From the NCBI RefSeq assembly GCF_964019385.1, contig NC_088645.1, positions 27,075,363 to 27,139,362 of the forward strand: 64,000 nucleotides of DNA, written 5' to 3'. Positions 10,799 to 56,423 of the stretch are shown here, piece by piece. This DNA is from Sycon ciliatum. Lineage: Eukaryota; Porifera; Calcarea; Leucosolenida; Sycettidae. The stretch's first letter is position 1. Each line of letters begins with the position of its first letter. The notes under the pieces are model-generated. The model saw nothing but the letters and a program-made list of their open reading frames with translations, did not search any database and had not been told where the DNA came from. Made by a program: the position numbers and the translations under genes.

Positions 10799-11028
10799 TC
10801 TCTCACCAGCTACAGTGTACATGTATATATTGCCCAGGTTCATTCAGCATACGTTTTTCTTCTTTTCCCTTTATGGTCACCACTCATCCCCCTTTTTATT
10901 TCCTAAACATTTACACTGATTGTTTTTTTAATTTTTTTATTGTTATTATTTTTGGTCCCATCGGCCTCTTCATATTTGTGCAGCTGCACTGTTGAGCTTC
11001 CGATGCAAAACAAATAATAATAATAATA

Positions 11029-12110
11029 ATTTAAAAATTCGACGAGGAGACAATATGTCCGTTATCCTAAATGACACATTAAAGTTCTGTACATTTGGTC
11101 CGGTCAAGACCTGTGATCGAACTGAAAAAGTAGAAAAGGATCTTGTAACTTATCTTAAGAAGCTAAAGAATGAAGAACAAATATCAAAACATGAATTCGA
11201 TCGCATCAAACCGACTGGTACCCTTCGTCCTAGACTCTATGGCCTTCCTAAAATCCATAAACCTACATGCCCTGTTAGACCAATAGTATCCATGACCGCC
11301 TCCCCTCAATACTCTATCTCGAAGTGGCTGTGCATCTACCTACAGCCTGTTCAAGATTACTATTGCAAACGCACTGCGAAGGATAGCTTCGACTTTGTTG
11401 CGAGGCTTCGTGATAGTCCGGTCCCTGTCAATGCACACATGTGTTCCTTCGATGTTGTAAGGCTCTTTACGAATGTTCCTATTGATGAGACTGATGACAT
11501 CTGTATGGATGTATTGTACCGTAACGATGATGTTGATACTCCATGGGTATCGGAAGCGGCGTTTCGTCATTTGATGCTGTCAGTTACAACTGGTGTCGAA
11601 TTTTCGTTCAACGATGTGATGTACAAGCAAGTGGATGGTGTGGCGATGGGATCTCCTCTTGGTCCCGTCCTCGCCAATATATTCGTTGGTTATTGTGAGT
11701 GCAAGATTGATGAGTCGCTTTGGCCCGCGTTCTACGTGCGTTTTGTTGACGATTCGTTCACGCATTTCGACAGTGTTGAGAGCAGTGAATTGTTTCTCGA
11801 TGTGCTCAACAGCCTACATCCTTCCCTCCGCTTTACTTGTGAGCACGAGCAGTCTAGTAAGTTGGCATTTCTAGACGTACTTGTAGAGAAGATTGGCTGT
11901 GAAATGTTGACTTCTGTGTATCGTAAGCCTACGTTCACCGGTCAGTACATTGCCTTCGATTCATATTGTTCGTCTAAATACAAGGTCAACTTAGTTCGTA
12001 ACCACGTGGACCGTGCGAAACGTATTTGTTCGCCCAGTAAGCTGCAGGCCGAGCTCGATTTTCTTCGATCTGTTTTCTTGAAGAATGGCCTCCCCTGACC
12101 CTCCTCCTGC
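11029..12110 (+). mobile_element. Penelope-like element fragment: reverse transcriptase
   Basis: An unbroken frame of about 350 codons encodes a PLE reverse transcriptase. The hallmark RPRLYGLPKIHKP lies near 11225-11265, followed by FDVVRLFTNVPIDE, motif B DGVAMGSPLGPVLANIF and catalytic YVRFVDDSF near 11735-11760. The C-terminal part has SVYRKPTFTGQYIAFDSY. The GIY-YIG endonuclease that normally follows is missing; the sequence runs into an unrelated LINE fragment near 12110. Its 5' side abuts the (AAT)n tail of LINE-B. Confidence 0.85.
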
Positions 12111-33240: not shown

Positions 33241-33282
33241 TAGAACAGTAGTAGTAACATGTAAAGAGAAAAGGGCCTATAA

Positions 33283-34052
33283 GTTACTAGTTATGACTAA
33301 TAGTCCACCAAGGTAACGAGAAAACGTACAGTCAGATAGCGCGACAACAAGGCTTGGAGGAAAGCCGGGAAACACTAACCAAAATATTCTCCAGAACTGC
33401 TAATAGGGCCCTATGCAAAAAAGGTGAAGAAGTGACGACAGTTAAAGGATTGCAAAAAGCAGAACCAGCTGAAGCATTATTTCACGAAGGTTTTATTGAA
33501 ATGTCAGGAACAAAGAAATACCTGTGATGAAAATGCAATGTGAATAACAATAGCAGGAACATGTAAAGGTTTTTAAAAGTCACTCTTAGTCACTAAGTTG
33601 ATTGTTCCAACTAGGAACACACGCTTCTTGCCGAACTTGACAATTGACTGACTCACGACTGCCATCCGGAGCACACGAGGAGCACTTCGCACCTTCCACT
33701 CGGCAAACCTGCAAGAAAGCACCACTCCCTGCTCAATACACAGTGTTTCGGGGAATTCACCCTCATCAGTTGAGCTTGAGTAGGCTGAGGAAGATTGTGC
33801 CTGAAAAGCACCACTTATATACTGCTCTCCAGGCCAAACCAACACCAGGGATACAAACTTACAGAGACGCTTTGTTTCCAGCGCGACAAACACCTCGTGA
33901 AGTTCCAGGTAGCAGCGTGAGTCGGAGTCGCTCATGGAGTTGTGATAAACAGACGTTGAGAGCATTCTAAGTTCTTAGTCACTAGTTATGACTAACAGTT
34001 CACCAAGGTAACGAGGTAATATACAGTCAGATAGTGTGACAACAAGGCACAC
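33283..34052 (-). mobile_element. Short non-coding hammerhead element flanked by 75-bp direct repeats
   Basis: A direct repeat of about 75 bases (starting actagttatgacta, with ccaaggtaacgag) occurs at 33283-33358 and 33972-34052. Between them, 33620-33950 matches the tandem unit at 47.9-48.7 kb, including its hammerhead. It has no ORF for a retroelement protein. The layout fits a non-autonomous PLE-derived or retrozyme-like unit. Confidence 0.6.
33732..33774 (-). ncRNA. Hammerhead ribozyme fold, family 3 copy a
   Basis: On minus: stem I CTCAA/TTGAG, core CTGATGA, stem II GGG-TGAATT-CCC (with one extra C), GAA, stem III ACA-CTG-TGT, scissile A. One G is missing relative to the copies at 48020 and 48497, leaving stem II with an unpaired C. 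Otherwise the fold is complete. Confidence 0.7.
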
Positions 34053-38850: not shown

Positions 38851-39117
38851 TTTCAATATTATTGTCATAAAAATACACATACATGTGGAACAAGTAACGT
38901 AGTTGTGTGATGTCTGTCGCCATCATCCTATTCATAGCTATATTAAAAATATTAGCTCCTCGTTGATTATTTGTATGTTCCTATTTTTGTTAACCGCAAT
39001 CAGTAATACAAGCTGGATCGACATTTGTGTACACTGTATTCATGTATTGTAAAACTGTGGAGACAATGTGCAATAAAACGATGAAAAATGTGAAGAAATT
39101 GTGTAGAGAAAGAAAGG

Positions 39118-39155
39118 GATTCAAACAAGTTTTCGTACAACACTCATCAGGAATC
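39118..39155 (-). ncRNA. Hammerhead ribozyme, family 1 (left repeat)
   Basis: Exact inverted copy of 40735-40772. On minus: GATTC, CTGATGA, GT-GTTGT-AC, GAA, AAC-TT-GTT, T, GAATC. All stems are paired. Confidence 0.8.
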
Positions 39156-39281
39156 GTCGTTGTACTAAAGGACACTGAAACAAAAATTGAACTATTATAG
39201 AAAATCTAAGTTAGAGAAATAACACTAAGAGCAACAACAGTGAAATTTACAAGTGTGAATTTTAACAATCAAAGCGAGAAA

Positions 39282-40504
39282 GTCCTGCTCGTTGTCCCGT
39301 CTATTTATGTTTGCCTTGGAAAGGACAGGAGTCGACTAAAGTTTGTAGTGCAGTCAAGTCCGTTGTTCGTCGAACATACTATGCAGTACACTTTGTGCCA
39401 GTTTTTGCGACGATGCGTGCGTTTACGGTGCGGAAGGATGTCCTACCAGCCCTTCACCTTAGTCATCTTATTTACAACTTTAAATGCCGACAATGCGCTA
39501 GTCGGTATGTTGGTAGGACTGTTCAGCACCTGAACGCACGCATCAAACAACACACACCACGTCACATACTTCCACCTTGCGCACAACAACAAAGACCGAA
39601 GCGAGGGCGACCTAGAAAACAACCATTAACCACACAGCCTTTGCCTACACAACCCGCGGATCCTGGCTCTCAGACTGTGCTTGCTCCGCCGTCGTTGGTG
39701 GCGGTGGTGGAGGAGAATGGGCGTGGTGGCTCATCGGGTCGGCTTGTGTCGCCGCCTTTGCTCCGGCCGTCGGTGGTTCCCTCGTCAGTGCCCCCGGCGG
39801 CTTTGGCTGAGGCGGTGCCGCTTGCGGTCCCATTCCCACTGCCTCCTCCTGATCCTCCGCCATCGGTTCTTGCGGCGGTGGAGCTTGCCAGTGGCAGACC
39901 GCGAGCAACACTGACAGCTGCATTAACACTACAAATGCCGACTCAAAAAGACCCACCTTGCATATCAGTAACTCCCACACCAACACCAACAACGCAATCT
40001 ACAGCAACCACAACTAATCCACCATCCAAGCCCATAATTGAAAGACCAAGACGATCAACAGCCAACTACAACAGAAGCTACGCACTCAGCGGACGAGGGC
40101 GAAAGGAGGGACGTGATAGCAGGGGGACGGCCGAGTTGAGTTCAATGGACCCGGTCAGGCAGGATGGACGAGACAGAGAGAGTACAGAGGAAGCGGAGGA
40201 TGGAACGGACGGCGGAGGGAGCAGTGAGTCGGAGAGCAGTGATGGGAGTGATGGTGAGAGTGCCGGTGAGAGTGTTAGTGTTGTGCGTAGGTTTCGTGGC
40301 AGCAAGTCTTCAGTGTACAATCATCTGCTGGCTAGTCCTGATTGTTGCGGTGCGTATTCCGACTCTTCGTTCACTGTATTGTGCCGTGGTCGTCATGGTT
40401 ATGGACTACAGTTAAAAGTGTTGGAAGCTATATATCAGCGTCTGTACAAGCCTAATTTGTGTGTACAGAAAGATAGTATAATTGGGTTGAAATTGTTCAA
40501 GTAA
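39282..40504 (+). CDS. PLE GIY-YIG endonuclease with a long AT-hook insert
   Basis: The frame at 39311-40504 (397 codons, open upstream to about the repeat edge) carries the C-terminal endonuclease of a PLE polyprotein. TMRAFTVRKDVLPALHLSHL and CRQCASRYVGRTVQHLNARI form the zinc-knuckle-like Cys pair and the GIY-YIG strand, with Arg in the helix. About 270 residues later come LEAIYQRLYKPNLCVQKDS with the conserved Glu and Asn/Gln region. The insert between them starts with an AT-hook (KRGRPRK), then is rich in Pro, Thr and acidic/Ser. The RT is missing; stop at 40502-40504. Confidence 0.75.
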
Positions 40505-40734
40505 CGTGTCGTGTTTAGTGCGGCCAAGCTTGGCCGTTAATGTTCTAGGTGTAATGTACTGCTGTTATGTGTTATCACGTTGTCTTTCCTACCTTTCTCC
40601 TTTGTTCATTTCTCGCTTTGATTGTTAAAATTCACACTTGTAAATTTCACTGTTGTTGCTCTTAGTGTTATTTCTCTAACTTAGATTTTCTATAATAGTT
40701 CAATTTTTGTTTCAGTGTCCTTTAGTACAACGAC

Positions 40735-40772
40735 GATTCCTGATGAGTGTTGTACGAAAACTTGTTTGAATC
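40735..40772 (+). ncRNA. Hammerhead ribozyme, family 1 (right repeat)
   Basis: Stem I GATTC/GAATC (5 bp), core CTGATGA (40740-40746), stem II GT-GTTGT-AC, GAA (40756-40758), stem III AAC-TT-GTT, scissile T at 40767, cleavage predicted before GAATC. Position 231 after the PLE stop codon, inside the 3' terminal repeat. This matches the short-stem-III hammerheads known from PLEs; those may need dimeric forms for efficient cleavage. Confidence 0.8.
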
Positions 40773-41035
40773 CCTTTCTTTCTCTACACAATTTCTTCAC
40801 ATTTTTCATCGTTTCATTGCACATTGTCTCCACAGTTTTACAATACATGAATACAGTGTACACAAATGTCGATCCAGCTTGTATTACTGATTGCGGTTAT
40901 CAAATTATTGTCTCCTCGCCGTTTGTTCACCTGTTTTTGTTCTTCACATTACATTCCCATCACATTCGTTTTATTTCTTTGTCCATCATCACTTTCTCAA
41001 AACTATGTTCAGGATATCTCAATAAAACATTCATG

Positions 41036-47717: not shown

Positions 47718-47834
47718 GTTGACATTTGCCCATGGTCCACTGGAGGTTTTGTCCACAAATACAGTTGACAGCTGCCATTCTCCCTACATGATTACATTCC
47801 ACCACGTGAGTGTCATTGCATTCCAAAATGCACC
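47718..47834 (-). CDS. Receptor exon: EGF-like domain
   Basis: A 117-bp exon (39 codons) on minus, between CTCCAG (AG 47836-47835) and GTAAGT (47717-47712), phase 1 at both ends. There is no stop in frame. The cysteine spacing is C-x3-C-x7-C-x10-C-x-C-x10-C, with CNDTHVVEC and VNCICGQNLQW visible, which fits an EGF-like fold; a short CCP-like variant is the alternative. It sits between the CCP exon (49510-49695) and the TM exon on the same strand, all phase 1. Confidence 0.75.
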
Positions 47835-48019
47835 CTGGAGGGGAGAAATGATATATATTATAATATTAATAATAGGAAAGGTTTTCTCCCCACACCGGAG
47901 CTCGCGCTATTCCGCCGACTTTACTTGACACTTGACTGACTCACGACTGCCATCCAGAGCACACGAGAAGTCCATCGAACCTTCGACTCGGCAAACCTGC
48001 AAGGAAGCACCACTCCCTG

Positions 48020-48063
48020 CTCAATACACAGTGTTTCGGGGAATTCACCCCTCATCAGTTGAG
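48020..48063 (-). ncRNA. Hammerhead ribozyme, family 3 copy b
   Basis: On minus: stem I CTCAA/TTGAG, core CTGATGA, stem II GGGG-TGAATT-CCCC, GAA, stem III ACA-CTG-TGT, scissile A with cleavage before TTGAG. Every helix is fully paired and all core residues match the consensus. Confidence 0.85.
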
Positions 48064-48496
48064 CTTGAGTAGGCTGGAGAAGATTGTGCCTGAAGAGCAC
48101 CACTTTTATAGTGCTCTCCAGGCACAAACATCACCAGGGATACAAATTTACAATGACGCTCCGCTTCCAGCGCGACAAACACCTCGTGAACACCAGATAG
48201 CAGCGTGAGTCAGTGTCGCTCCTGGACGGCGAGACAGACGTCGAGGACCCTCGGTCTTTCGCAACGCTGTCACCTTCAAACCAACTAGTCGCAAGCCCGC
48301 GCTTGGCACAACAGTACGAAGTAGTGGTTGCGACTTCGGCGATGATTTGTAAGAAAGGTTTGCTCCCCACACCGGAGCTCGCGCTATTCCGCCGACTTTG
48401 CTTGACACTTGACTGACTCACAACTGCCATCCAGAGCACACGAGAAGTCCATCGAACCTTCGACTCGGCAAACCTGCAAGAAAGCACCACTCCCTG

Positions 48497-48540
48497 CTCA
48501 ATACACAGTGTTTCGGGGAATTCACCCCTCATCAGTTGAG
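48497..48540 (-). ncRNA. Hammerhead ribozyme, family 3 copy c
   Basis: Identical fold to 48020-48063, 477 bases away. Cleavage at both sites of a transcript across the dimer would release a unit-length RNA with the ends needed for circularisation (inference from known hammerhead biology). Confidence 0.85.
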
Positions 48541-48959
48541 CTTGAGTAGGCTGAGGAAGATTGTGCCTGAAGAGCACCACTTATATAGTGCTCTCCAGGC
48601 ACAAACATCACCAGGGATACAAACTTACAGAGACGCTCCGCTTCCAGCGCGACAAACACCTCGTGAACACCAGATAGCAGCGTGAGTCAGTGTAGAAACC
48701 TTTCTTACAAATCATCGCCGAAGTCGCAACCACTACTTCGTATTATCACTCCCTTAGTATTGACTCGCATAGATTTTTGCCATGCAAAAGCAGTCAAATA
48801 TTCCTGCATATTTCACTCCTTAGGGCTATATTGACTGCTTATATTTGACTGCTTAGGGGTTGCGCAGTTGAACGGTGCCTAGTGCAGTATTGTCACTGCA
48901 TGAGTAGGTGGTGGTGCAACGGTTGTGCAATCATAAAACCGGGGTTCATGAGGTTATCG

Positions 48960-49290: not shown

Positions 49291-49352
49291 TCCGCCATGA
49301 CTTGAACCCGAGACCTTGTTTGTCCCGAGCAATACTCTAACAGTGTAATCCA
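49287..49352 (-). repeat. tRNA-derived sequence (SINE head)
   Basis: On minus: gttagagtattgctcgggac, then ctcgggttcaagtcatgg, a near-consensus B box. The A-box region is disrupted (ttacactg). A tRNA-like remnant, not a functional tRNA. Confidence 0.5.
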
Positions 49353-49509
49353 TGGGACAAGGGCGAACTTAGAAGGCGCGGACAGGATTTCACCCCAACG
49401 GCCAAATGTGAATGTTTGTTTGCTTGGAAGAGATATTTGAAGCACTTGATATTCCTTAAATATTTTGTTTGTAATTGCATAACTGGTGTACTTCGAGGTA
49501 AAGACTTAC

Positions 49510-49695
49510 TTTCACATAAAGGTTGCCTTGGTTGCCACCTTCCATTGCCCTGGCATGTAGACTGGGTTATTTCCATACTATTGTTAGACAAAAAACCTGT
49601 TATGCATTCGATGGATACTGTGGTACCTGGTAGTGTGTTGAAACTGGCAACAGGTTTGTAATTGAACTTGGTGTCAGTGAGAGTAGGACATTGCA
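49510..49695 (-). CDS. Receptor exon: CCP/sushi domain
   Basis: A 186-bp exon (62 codons), phase 1 at both ends, between TTCCCAG (AG 49697-49696) and GTAAGT (49509-49504). It encodes a complete complement-control-protein module with four cysteines: QCPTL, SIECITGF, QSTCQGNGRW and QPLCE. The Gly-Arg-Trp before the last cysteine is the family hallmark. The C1-C3/C2-C4 disulfide pattern is expected. It lies between the Ig exon (52943-53332) and the EGF-like exon on the same strand. Confidence 0.85.
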
Positions 49696-49699
49696 CTGG

Positions 49700-52335
49700 G
49701 AAGAAAGAGACAACATTCAATGCAGTTACTCACAATAAGTGAACAGCCCGCAACTAAAACCATTACTGTGATGGTCCATAGAGATAGAAGCAGACAATAT
49801 TTTGCTAATTACACGGAACATGGGTGTACCCAGACCTGCTGCACTTGTCCATGTTCTGTTGAAAACTAATTATTCACAGATTTCAATAGGACAAGTATAG
49901 GTGACAATTTGATGAAACCTGGAAAGCGAATAACAACCCGTGTTAACATGACAGGAAAACAACAACTTTGGAATGGGAGAGCACGCACGGTTTTGTAAGA
50001 AGTGTGCTCGGTGTGCGTGGCTAATTTTCATGGAGAGATTACCATCAGTACATTCACCCTAATGGTTATTGCATGGCTGAAGAAATTGTTGCTAGTTCAG
50101 TTATCCGACATGTTGAAGAAGGAGAAGGTGATGGAAGGTAAGGATTCTGAATAGCTTCAAGTGCAATGCCAGCAACCGAACAGCAGCAACAATTAGCAGC
50201 TAGTGCAGTGCCAGAGGCTGCCTCACTTTGTTCAGTTCGTCCCTTGATGAATCCCCCTTGGCCACGCTCGTACGTGGCACAGGTGATAAACAATATCTCG
50301 GTATGCCTGGAAAGTGGCCAGATGTTGTGTATTTCCCTTAGCACTCTCAACCATGTCAATTACTAGCTCTATACTCAACATACAATACGTGTGCACATCA
50401 GAACTGTGCATTGTGATCTGCATGCATATATGACATGTACATTTGGCTTCATGTTCAAATTAATATTTTCCAAATTTGCTCTTGAAGTTTGATAACAGTC
50501 TACTTGAGGAACTTCAGCAAGCGAGATATAGATCATGATCGATGTCTCATGTTTGTACAAACCCAAAACACGACGGCATCAGTGAATCAGATGCGCAGGT
50601 CATGACGTATACATGCATGTATATTCTGTCCTCAGACTCCTCACATACAACGGAGGCGAACGGTTGTGTAGCCCTTACAGCAAGTTTCACGCATTTCATC
50701 GATCACCAGACTGCAGTATTTGGCATTCACCCTGAATGCCATATGCTACTATTTGATGATCGCTCAATTGCGTGCAACTTGGAGTTACAGCTACACACTG
50801 TGTGACATCATTTCGCCTCCGTTGTATGCTGCTCTGCCTCGAGCTGCCTCAACTGGCCTTGTTGGCTTATGTGCTAGACCAATAACAACACATTGTAAAT
50901 ATACCATGCGTGCCTGAATTCAGTATTTCACAATATTGCAGAGCACTTCAAGATTCACGCGCGGACGCGCAGCAAATGCCACGTAGATGAGCTAAAGGCT
51001 GTTTACATTGCCAAAACCACAGCCTAAACTTTGTAGACAGCAGGAATTTGTAACGAAACGAGTGCTATTTTGACCTCCCGCCTCTCTGTAATAATTTTTG
51101 TACTTTTTCGTGCAACTCACACAATCAATCATAATTTCTCCACCGATATGCTGTATTTAGGAAAATTCACTTTTCAACTCCAAACTCCAAAAACTCCGAT
51201 TCAAATTCAAATTTACATTGCACCAAATTTTCGGGCCTGGCCAATCCTCAGGGTAATGAATGACAAAATGTCAATTGCATAGGTACTTATTGAACTATAT
51301 GTATGAAGACAACAACTAATGACACTGAGAATCTGAGAACGTTAACTTGTTGGTGTGAATATGCTTGGTGACGATTATGAAGGAAATAATTGTAGGTGAT
51401 GTATGTCTCAGCAGTAACGTGTGTTTGTATTAGGGGGGGGGGGGGGGAGCTTCAATTAATCTCATTGGACAGATGCAAATACAGAGGGATAAATTGTCTA
51501 CCCACATTTACGACATGCCTTGGCAACAGATATACATATACAAGGGTAGAATATTACTAACCCATAATTCTTCCTTGAATTGATGGTGTGTGTGTGTGTA
51601 CGTGTGTGTCTGTGTGGGTATCTGTGGATATCTGTGTGCGCGCGCGTGTGTGTGTGTGTGTGTGCGTGTGTGTACGCAATCGCCATCGCTGTTCAACGCA
51701 CTGCCACCGTCCAACGGCTAGATAACGGGACAAGTTCCCGCATATTTGTATCTGCTCTCGCCTTTTGCGATTCGTCTCGCATCTGGAGCGTGATTGGGTA
51801 GCGTAATCTTTCTCTCTCTCTCTGCTGCCCCTCTGGGGCCCACGTGACCCTAGTGGTAGTGGCTCTACTGGACGGGACAGGTGCGTGTGTGTGTGTTTGT
51901 GTGTGCATTGGCTACTAATGGTAGTCGGCTAAGTGCGCTCGGAGGATTATAAGGGGAGGAGAGATTGTTGATATGTTGTATAAACTATAAGTGGACAGCG
52001 TTGTGCTTCGTCACATTATCACCATGTACAGATTTGAGAAATAAAGTTTGATCCGTTCTTTCTTTTATTTGAATTCGTTTACTTGAGTAATGGTACGGAA
52101 GGCCTAATCATAGGCAACTGGCTTCGTCTCTTCGTGTGCCAATATATCTCCATTGTTAAAGAAATATAACCTTAACCCTTTGGGCCTACCCTGAAGTGAC
52201 CGCAAGCCGAAATGTCCTGCATATTGTGTGTGCATTGTTCATTTTTCATCGCAGCAGTGATTCCACTTTACCAATTGTGACATTACTCTGCTTTTGCTTT
52301 GGCTCATTACTTAGTTAACGAAAAGGCGGCGAGGA
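49700..52335. other. Receptor intron; simple repeats and remnants
   Basis: No further exon recognised. Contents: a decayed family 2 hammerhead relative near 50688-50710 on minus (core CTGGTGA, stems unpaired), a G13 run at about 51434-51447, a TG/GT tract at 51584-51672, and caaataaa-like LINE tail sequence near 52065-52080. Confidence 0.5.
51584..51672. repeat. (TG)n microsatellite
   Basis: Imperfect TG repeat with CG interruptions. Confidence 0.9.
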
Positions 52336-56379: not shown

Positions 56380-56423
56380 CTCAACACGCAGTGTTTCGGG
56401 GACCTAACCCCTCATCAGCTGAG
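56380..56423 (-). ncRNA. Hammerhead fold, family 3, decayed copy d
   Basis: On minus: stem I CTCAG/TTGAG (one G-U), core CTGATGA, stem II GGGG-TTAGGT-CCCC, GAA, stem III ACA-CTG-CGT (mismatch), and G at the cleavage position, which does not support cleavage. Flanking sequence also matches the 477-bp unit. Confidence 0.55.

Follow-up and report, generated by a model that had tools for sequence, protein, structure and literature searches.

A retrozyme-like tandem hammerhead element with insertion scars of the Penelope-like type in the genome of Sycon ciliatum

A short non-coding repeat element that carries hammerhead ribozymes lies at 47873-48742 of a 64,000-nucleotide stretch of the genome of the sponge Sycon ciliatum (NC_088645.1, positions 27,075,363 to 27,139,362; this whole stretch is referred to as the window, and its own numbering is used below). 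The unit of the element is 477 nt long and is numbered in transcript orientation, q1-q477. Its insertion scars parallel those of the Penelope-like elements (PLEs) of the same genome in start-site pattern, target choice and two-armed layout. The element is probably a non-autonomous retrozyme of the metazoan type, mobilized by PLEs and inserted by two-sided target-primed reverse transcription. The insertion is composed of the following parts:

47873..48742, minus strand: whole retrozyme insertion, two arms head-to-head
47873..48349, minus strand: long arm, full 477-nt unit, with its outer end at putative start site A (q477)
48350..48693, minus strand: long arm, second unit, 5'-truncated, 344 nt
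48019..48064, minus strand: hammerhead of type I, with the cut predicted at 48025/48024 (own motif scan)
48496..48541, minus strand: hammerhead of type I, with the cut predicted at 48502/48501 (own motif scan)
48315..48349, minus strand: putative start-site region q1-35, equivalent to the 'tail' of PLEs (by comparison with PMC11167929); its hairpin q12-33 (48317-48338) has an AC-rich loop
48696..48742, plus strand: short inverted arm, 47 nt, with its outer end at putative start site B (q35)

The window insertion and its ribozymes

Along the minus strand the insertion consists of the 47-nt inverted end, the 344-nt truncated unit and the 477-nt full unit, in this order. An earlier reading made from the letters of the window (the sequence-only reading) had described two head-to-tail copies exactly 477 bp apart, each with a perfect hammerhead and a GGGG/CCCC stem II, and this description holds for 47873-48349 and 48350-48693: the period is exactly 477 bp and the 344-bp second copy is 96.8% identical to the full one. 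The inverted end that it gave as 49 bases is real but measures 47 nt, as 48696-48742 is the exact reverse complement of 48315-48361. Judged from this arrangement, the inverted 'tail' of the window copy is explained as the short second arm of a putative two-sided insertion.

The ribozyme of each unit reads GCUCAA-CUGAUGA-GGGG(UGAAUU)CCCC-GAA-ACA(CUG)UGU-A/UUGAGC, with a stem II of 4 bp and a stem III of 3 bp, and the two cores in the window are identical and perfect. As stem I is the open stem, the hammerhead is of type I and not, as had been proposed, of 'family 3'. A motif of the same quality (stem II of at least 4, stem I of at least 6 and stem III of at least 2 bp) was found in 0 of 40 windows simulated from the dinucleotide content. 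The assignment depends on our own motif scan, since Rfam reported no hammerhead either in the 64-kb window at the gathering score or in a 1-kb stretch at E up to 1, where the only matches were two weak ones to mir-550, both at 48068-48144; the PLE in the window gave no Rfam match at E up to 1. Each unit also accommodates a strong internal hairpin (48074-48137 and 48551-48614) with 27-nt arms that are 81-85% complementary, and this could be a protein-binding or small-RNA feature; the weak mir-550 matches fall on the first of the two hairpins. Folded as a circle, the 477-nt unit reaches -203.1 kcal/mol against -159.7 ± 10.5 for 60 shuffles (z -4.1), a difference that is suggestive only.

The absence of a retroelement open reading frame (ORF) was confirmed by eye in the ORF lists, where the frames of the insertion span at most 149 aa from stop to stop; the ORFs of the unit were judged from these lists by eye, without a protein-family search. 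A frame combining reverse transcriptase (RT) and GIY-YIG, the criterion for an autonomous PLE, is likewise absent from the insertion in these lists. The previously proposed location in an intron of a host gene finds support in a minus-strand sushi exon (49337-49729) and in a second candidate exon, cysteine-rich and recognized by eye only, at ~47718-47839. Because the sushi exon is on the minus strand, the ribozyme would be in sense with the host gene. Given the sushi exon, the gene content of the genome is animal-like.

Two-armed inserts across the genome

A search of the 538-Mb genome with the right half of the element, in which 40 of 1073 candidates were scored, returned at least 207 matches, fragments included, and the long matches listed are mostly 95-99% identical. 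The unit was mapped on loci L001-L030, of which L011-L030 had been picked from the genome match list because they contain several units; L008 was removed as a duplicate of L028, and one group of L003 extends past the locus edge. Twenty-nine of the 31 inserts recognized are two-armed palindromes, in which the transcript 3' ends point outward and the arms meet head-to-head. The arms are 5'-truncated head-to-tail runs of 0.1-7 units. A second fragment at L029 comprises one arm only.

The outer ends of the inserts fall on either of two positions of the RNA that are separated by about 35 nt, namely A (q473 to about q5) and B (q31-41). Both outer ends fall at A or B in 28 of the 29 two-armed inserts, and in 26 of these 28 one A end is paired with one B end (binomial P 1.5e-6). 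The query itself has A and B ends, so that the selection of L001-L010 favoured this pairing; for this reason L011-L030 were counted separately, and 16 of 18 inserts conform (P 7e-4). A second sample was restricted to inserts with a B end at (TAA)n and comprised eight distinct B-end places from the head of the list followed by three more in list order, 11 places in total; in it A occupies the far side in 9 of 9 determinable inserts; L072, which extends past the locus edge, and L081, which duplicates L079, were excluded. At the scale of the genome, the outer-end pattern next to AATAAT has 508 matches (327 forward and 181 reverse, many places being matched twice) against 0 for the reversed control, and contig C1 alone harbours 54 distinct B ends. 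A and B are situated on either side of CGAAGT..ACTTCG with its AC-rich loop; the A-B region does not fold more stably than its shuffles (z -0.4), and the PLE of this genome has no clear hairpin at the equivalent place.

TAA/TTA microsatellites are the target of 18 of 30 inserts. Outside microsatellites, target duplications of 11-15 bp, possibly 1-2 bases too long where element and target share letters, are present in 10 of 12 inserts, one of these (L026) being itself an AAT repeat, and mismatched left-right pairs give at most 8 bp. The duplication at L024 is 5 bp only. Since the duplication encloses the entire palindrome, both arms derive from one event. Tandem repeats of high identity are typical of ordinary satellites, which expand by unequal crossing-over, yet the present arrays are short and dispersed, and are characterized by target duplications, fixed outer ends and unequal inverted arms; a satellite, or an artefact of assembly, is accordingly an explanation of almost negligible probability.

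Among the 38 centre joins printed, the only identical pair is L079/L081, which indicates that the other inserts are separate events. The possibility that L001-L010 are copies of one event was ruled out, as their centre joins differ. At C1:7510630-7547480 (L079-L081) the same PLE and microsatellite target are seemingly repeated; L079 and L081 share one retrozyme insertion and L080 has a different one. The joins of 22 inserts comprise 9 with overlaps of 1-5 nt, 1 that is blunt and 12 with inserts of 1-30 nt, and some of these inserts are short repeated copies of nearby sequence (L022, L023, L027, L071). Short overlaps accompanied by small copied inserts have the look of polymerase-theta end joining, and polymerase theta is the candidate joining agent to which the joins point.

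Palindromes of this kind might also arise by snap-back, that is, by self-priming of one complementary DNA (cDNA), as put forward for head-to-head copies of rotifer Penelope on an antisense template (PMC3846280). A strand copied in this manner would have the same end on both sides, whereas the arms differ in length and, in 26 of 28 inserts, in their outer end. Moreover, the outer flank is the target duplication and not a copy of the other flank, and the centre joins unite different unit positions in nearly all loci. The sole locus that could resemble a snap-back product is L029, with q223 on both sides and a complex centre, and we consider this origin very improbable for the inserts at large.

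Penelope-like elements, the template and the insertion mechanism

The PLEs of the genome were surveyed with a frame from the window as query:

10932..12098, plus strand: PLE-like reverse transcriptase ORF (RVT_1 E 2e-5, below the curated cut-off)

Relatives of this frame reach up to 97% identity. The genome search, in which 122 of 2548 candidates were scored, gave at least 123 matches, several of them in open frames of ~1085 aa that are arranged in tandem at ~3.65 kb and in opposite orientation. In the PLE ORF of L042, the matches to RVT_1 (E 7e-5) and to GIY-YIG (E 0.018) stay under the curated cut-offs, and searches of PDB and NCBIfam with the PLE ORF yielded only weak group II intron-like RT matches. 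The outer ends of this PLE occur at two places, ref 627-632 and 650-657, embedded in (TAA)n or A-rich DNA, and the corresponding start sites would be ~39-69 nt inside the ORF. One end of each kind is present in 7 of 7 PLE inserts with both ends read; these inserts had been picked for one end already visible, and four of the ends were first taken from the stop of the match and then confirmed.

The similar layout of these PLEs, their own hammerheads and their shared targets would also be expected if the unit were the pseudo-long terminal repeat (pseudo-LTR) of an autonomous PLE and the arrays were remnants of such elements. Within the one PLE family of the genome covered by this comparison, the unit is present in 3 of 30 RT loci of about 4 kb and in none of the other 27, and the three unit-bearing loci represent two retrozyme arrays nested in PLEs at an identical position of the element, with a 13-bp duplication around each. 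For this family, the unit is thus not regularly found beside an autonomous PLE as its terminal repeat, the outcome that the sequence-only reading had named as contrary to its own interpretation, and a pseudo-LTR origin is improbable. The nested arrays (C8:29744841-29746901 and C11:2316587-2317659; L003, L035, L036, L051, L061, L062) belong to different retrozyme subfamilies and share a TTA-rich PLE site.

Several lines of evidence bear on the template. Mean distances between long fragments are 0.251% within arms, 0.309% between the arms of a locus and 0.744% between loci. When the arms of 16 two-armed loci were re-paired, own arms differed by 0.305% and random pairs by 0.720%, with 0 of 20000 re-pairings as low as the true one; seven long fragments had been dropped, two of them from the window copy, which is older, and five from separate copies or a complex centre. 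Variant states within a locus are singletons in 35 of 37 cases and occur in no other locus in 30 of 37, a distribution that fits mutations arising after insertion. Eight states are fixed in one locus and present in at most 10% of fragments elsewhere, and both arms cover five of the eight (L011, L016 three times, L022).

The predicted ribozyme cleavage bond is crossed by 45 of 56 arms, in 22 of them at least twice, and the longest arm measures 3306 nt, equivalent to ~6.9 turns. This read-through means that the template was not a cleaved linear monomer. A circular template appears to fit best, because the perfect hammerhead is kept in 92 of 96 long fragments (chosen at ≥90% identity) and the units of a locus were mostly alike at insertion. 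The same two-sided PLE insertion could nevertheless have used as template the uncleaved multimeric transcript, long and linear, of an existing array. Crossing of the cleavage site would then require only uncut RNA; indeed, a lizard PLE is active without ribozyme cleavage (PMC11167929). The 5' ends of the arms in L001-L030 are seemingly frequent at q99-139 and q378-433, sometimes paired with each other, and those at q99-139 could mark the 5' end of such an RNA; this clustering is partly a selection effect, as L002-L010 were partly chosen for it by the query, and it is not used as support. The conserved hammerhead speaks against a linear multimer, as do the 3306-nt arms, which would require transcripts of ~7 units. 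Furthermore, a diverging array would transmit shared differences, which are clear only in L020, the variants being singletons in all but two of the 37 cases. We regard the linear multimer as rather unlikely.

Insertion by two-sided priming on an RNA circle could proceed in the following manner. The array would be transcribed and the type I hammerhead would cut the RNA into 477-nt monomers, which would then be closed into circles. A PLE protein, perhaps from the abundant 1085-aa family, would be the agent; by analogy with the shared architecture, it may bind the start-site hairpin of the RNA and, as the duplications suggest, introduce staggered cuts, ~11-15 bp apart, into the two strands of an AT-rich target, which is (TAA)n in most cases. 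The two target 3' ends would prime on one and the same RNA sequence, at A and at B respectively, across the hairpin. Such priming, with both sites used simultaneously on one RNA, would leave behind the observed pattern of ends. Each polymerase would run round the template 0.1 to 7 times, which would account for the observed head-to-tail arms, and the two antisense cDNAs would finally be united head-to-head by microhomology or short-insert end joining, possibly through polymerase theta. In the window copy, synthesis on side A would have gone round 1.7 times and that on side B would have stopped after 47 nt. A broader proposal is that PLEs and retrozymes alike use one ribonucleoprotein and one RNA circle, with both target strands entering two starts that flank one hairpin, both polymerases circling and head-to-head joining of the polymerase-theta type; we hold the chances for and against this generalization to be evenly balanced.

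A number of observations weigh against PLE-mediated insertion from a circle. The end rule has exceptions in L026 (A/A) and L028 (B/B), the left end of L024 lies at neither site and L013 has one arm. The window copy shows only a possible 5-bp duplication and, being older, stands outside the arm-distance comparison. Taken locus by locus, an arm does not always have its own partner as nearest match (ranks 1 to 14 of 16), gene conversion after insertion could be part of the cause of alike arms, and L020 mixes states of two template types. Overlaps at the joins stand without a chance level, and diverged bases can mimic inserts in the join script. Read-through of the ribozyme site would equally be expected of a linear multimer left uncleaved, and the circle, the cleavage and the expression of the retrozyme RNA are all deduced from DNA. 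On the side of the enzyme, the PLE label derives from weak domain matches together with domain order, hammerhead and layout; the PDB search with the PLE ORF gave no telomerase match. The tail sequences of PLE and retrozyme differ, only a short A-site motif being alike. Finally, the lizard PLE works in vitro with no start-site difference between strands and with no need of hammerhead cleavage (PMC11167929).

Further retrozyme and PLE pieces are located elsewhere in the window:

33587..33963, minus strand: retrozyme subfamily B fragment, hammerhead 33731-33775 (stem II 3 bp), ~96% identical to units at C11
56312..56435, minus strand: decayed retrozyme remnant, 82% identity
38986..40904, plus strand: other PLE fragment, ORF 39266-40504 with GIY-YIG match (E 0.029, below the curated cut-off)

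The first of these corresponds to the copy that had been placed at 33283-34052 between 75-bp flanking repeats. The copy is genuine, but it is a subfamily B fragment, and the direct repeats (33282-33353 and 33977-34048) are 72 bp long and 88% identical; with gaps of 233 bp and 13 bp to the fragment, they do not form its ends. The dead copy noted at 56380 is the decayed remnant. The PLE fragment is bordered by inverted 296-bp 3' ends (38986-39281 and 40609-40904; 99.3%), each with an outward hammerhead, and is probably a recent insertion of a second PLE family with small hammerheads at its ends.

Comparison with known retrozymes and Penelope-like elements

The view of the window insertion as a non-autonomous, retrozyme-like tandem hammerhead element is well supported; what the sequence-only reading missed, besides the hammerhead family, is that the inverted end is a second arm and links the element to PLE enzymes. 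On the question of how animal retrozymes move, descriptions of metazoan retrozymes name PLEs as likely or possible helpers (PMC7229834, PMC7761336, PMC11722881, PMC8969392), as the two have type I hammerheads in common and occur together (PMC7229834, PMC7761336). The scars described here match the PLEs of the same genome and could also explain why PLEs have inverted ends and tails. The circle-templated, two-sided mechanism becomes testable with a purified PLE and one 477-nt RNA. If true, one mechanism would account for tandem copies, inverted ends and tails, and would give a reason for the presence of hammerheads in PLEs.

Plant LTR retrozymes resemble the element in that tandem hammerheads flank a non-coding unit; they are characterized by a type III hammerhead, LTRs, a primer site and 4-bp duplications (PMC7229834, PMC7761336), in contrast with the type I hammerhead and 11-15-bp duplications observed here. 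Metazoan non-LTR retrozymes (Cervera and de la Pena 2020, PMC7229834) are closer: they share the type I hammerhead, multicopy short non-coding tandem units and target duplications of more than 4 bp, and dependence on PLEs was proposed for them. The unit is longer (477 nt versus 170-400) and richer in GC (53.5% versus less than 50%), although these ranges are descriptive and not strict. Two-armed palindromes with PLE-type twin starts were not met in the accessible parts of PMC7229834, and the words inverted, microsatellite and sponge do not occur in its main text. Searches of the open literature, which mostly leave subscription papers aside and whose hits were for the most part viewed as search entries, brought up no description of palindromic retrozyme inserts with paired PLE start sites.

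The element differs from PLEs in having no ORF and a different start-site sequence, and its hammerhead has stems II/III of 4/3 bp, against 3/2 bp in the PLE of this genome. Target duplications are short in both, 8-10 bp for rotifer PLEs (PMC3846280) and 11-15 bp here. In rotifer Penelope, inverted pseudo-LTRs stand head-to-head with a tail on one of them, an arrangement attributed to antisense-template self-priming (PMC3846280). In vitro, the purified PLE of a lizard acts on both target strands, which it cuts and then extends, with a preference for ATT; synthesis begins at two internal sites within an AC-rich stem-loop, near 111-118 nt inside the ORF, and the distance between them equals the genomic tail (PMC11167929). 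The pairing of A with B in the retrozyme inserts agrees with these twin internal starts. Like PLEs, the retrozyme has AT-rich targets and inverted ends that face outward, one of which bears a tail of ~30 nt (PMC3846280, PMC11167929); two putative internal starts around a predicted stem-loop, with a hammerhead upstream, would be a further parallel (PMC11167929, PMC3846280).
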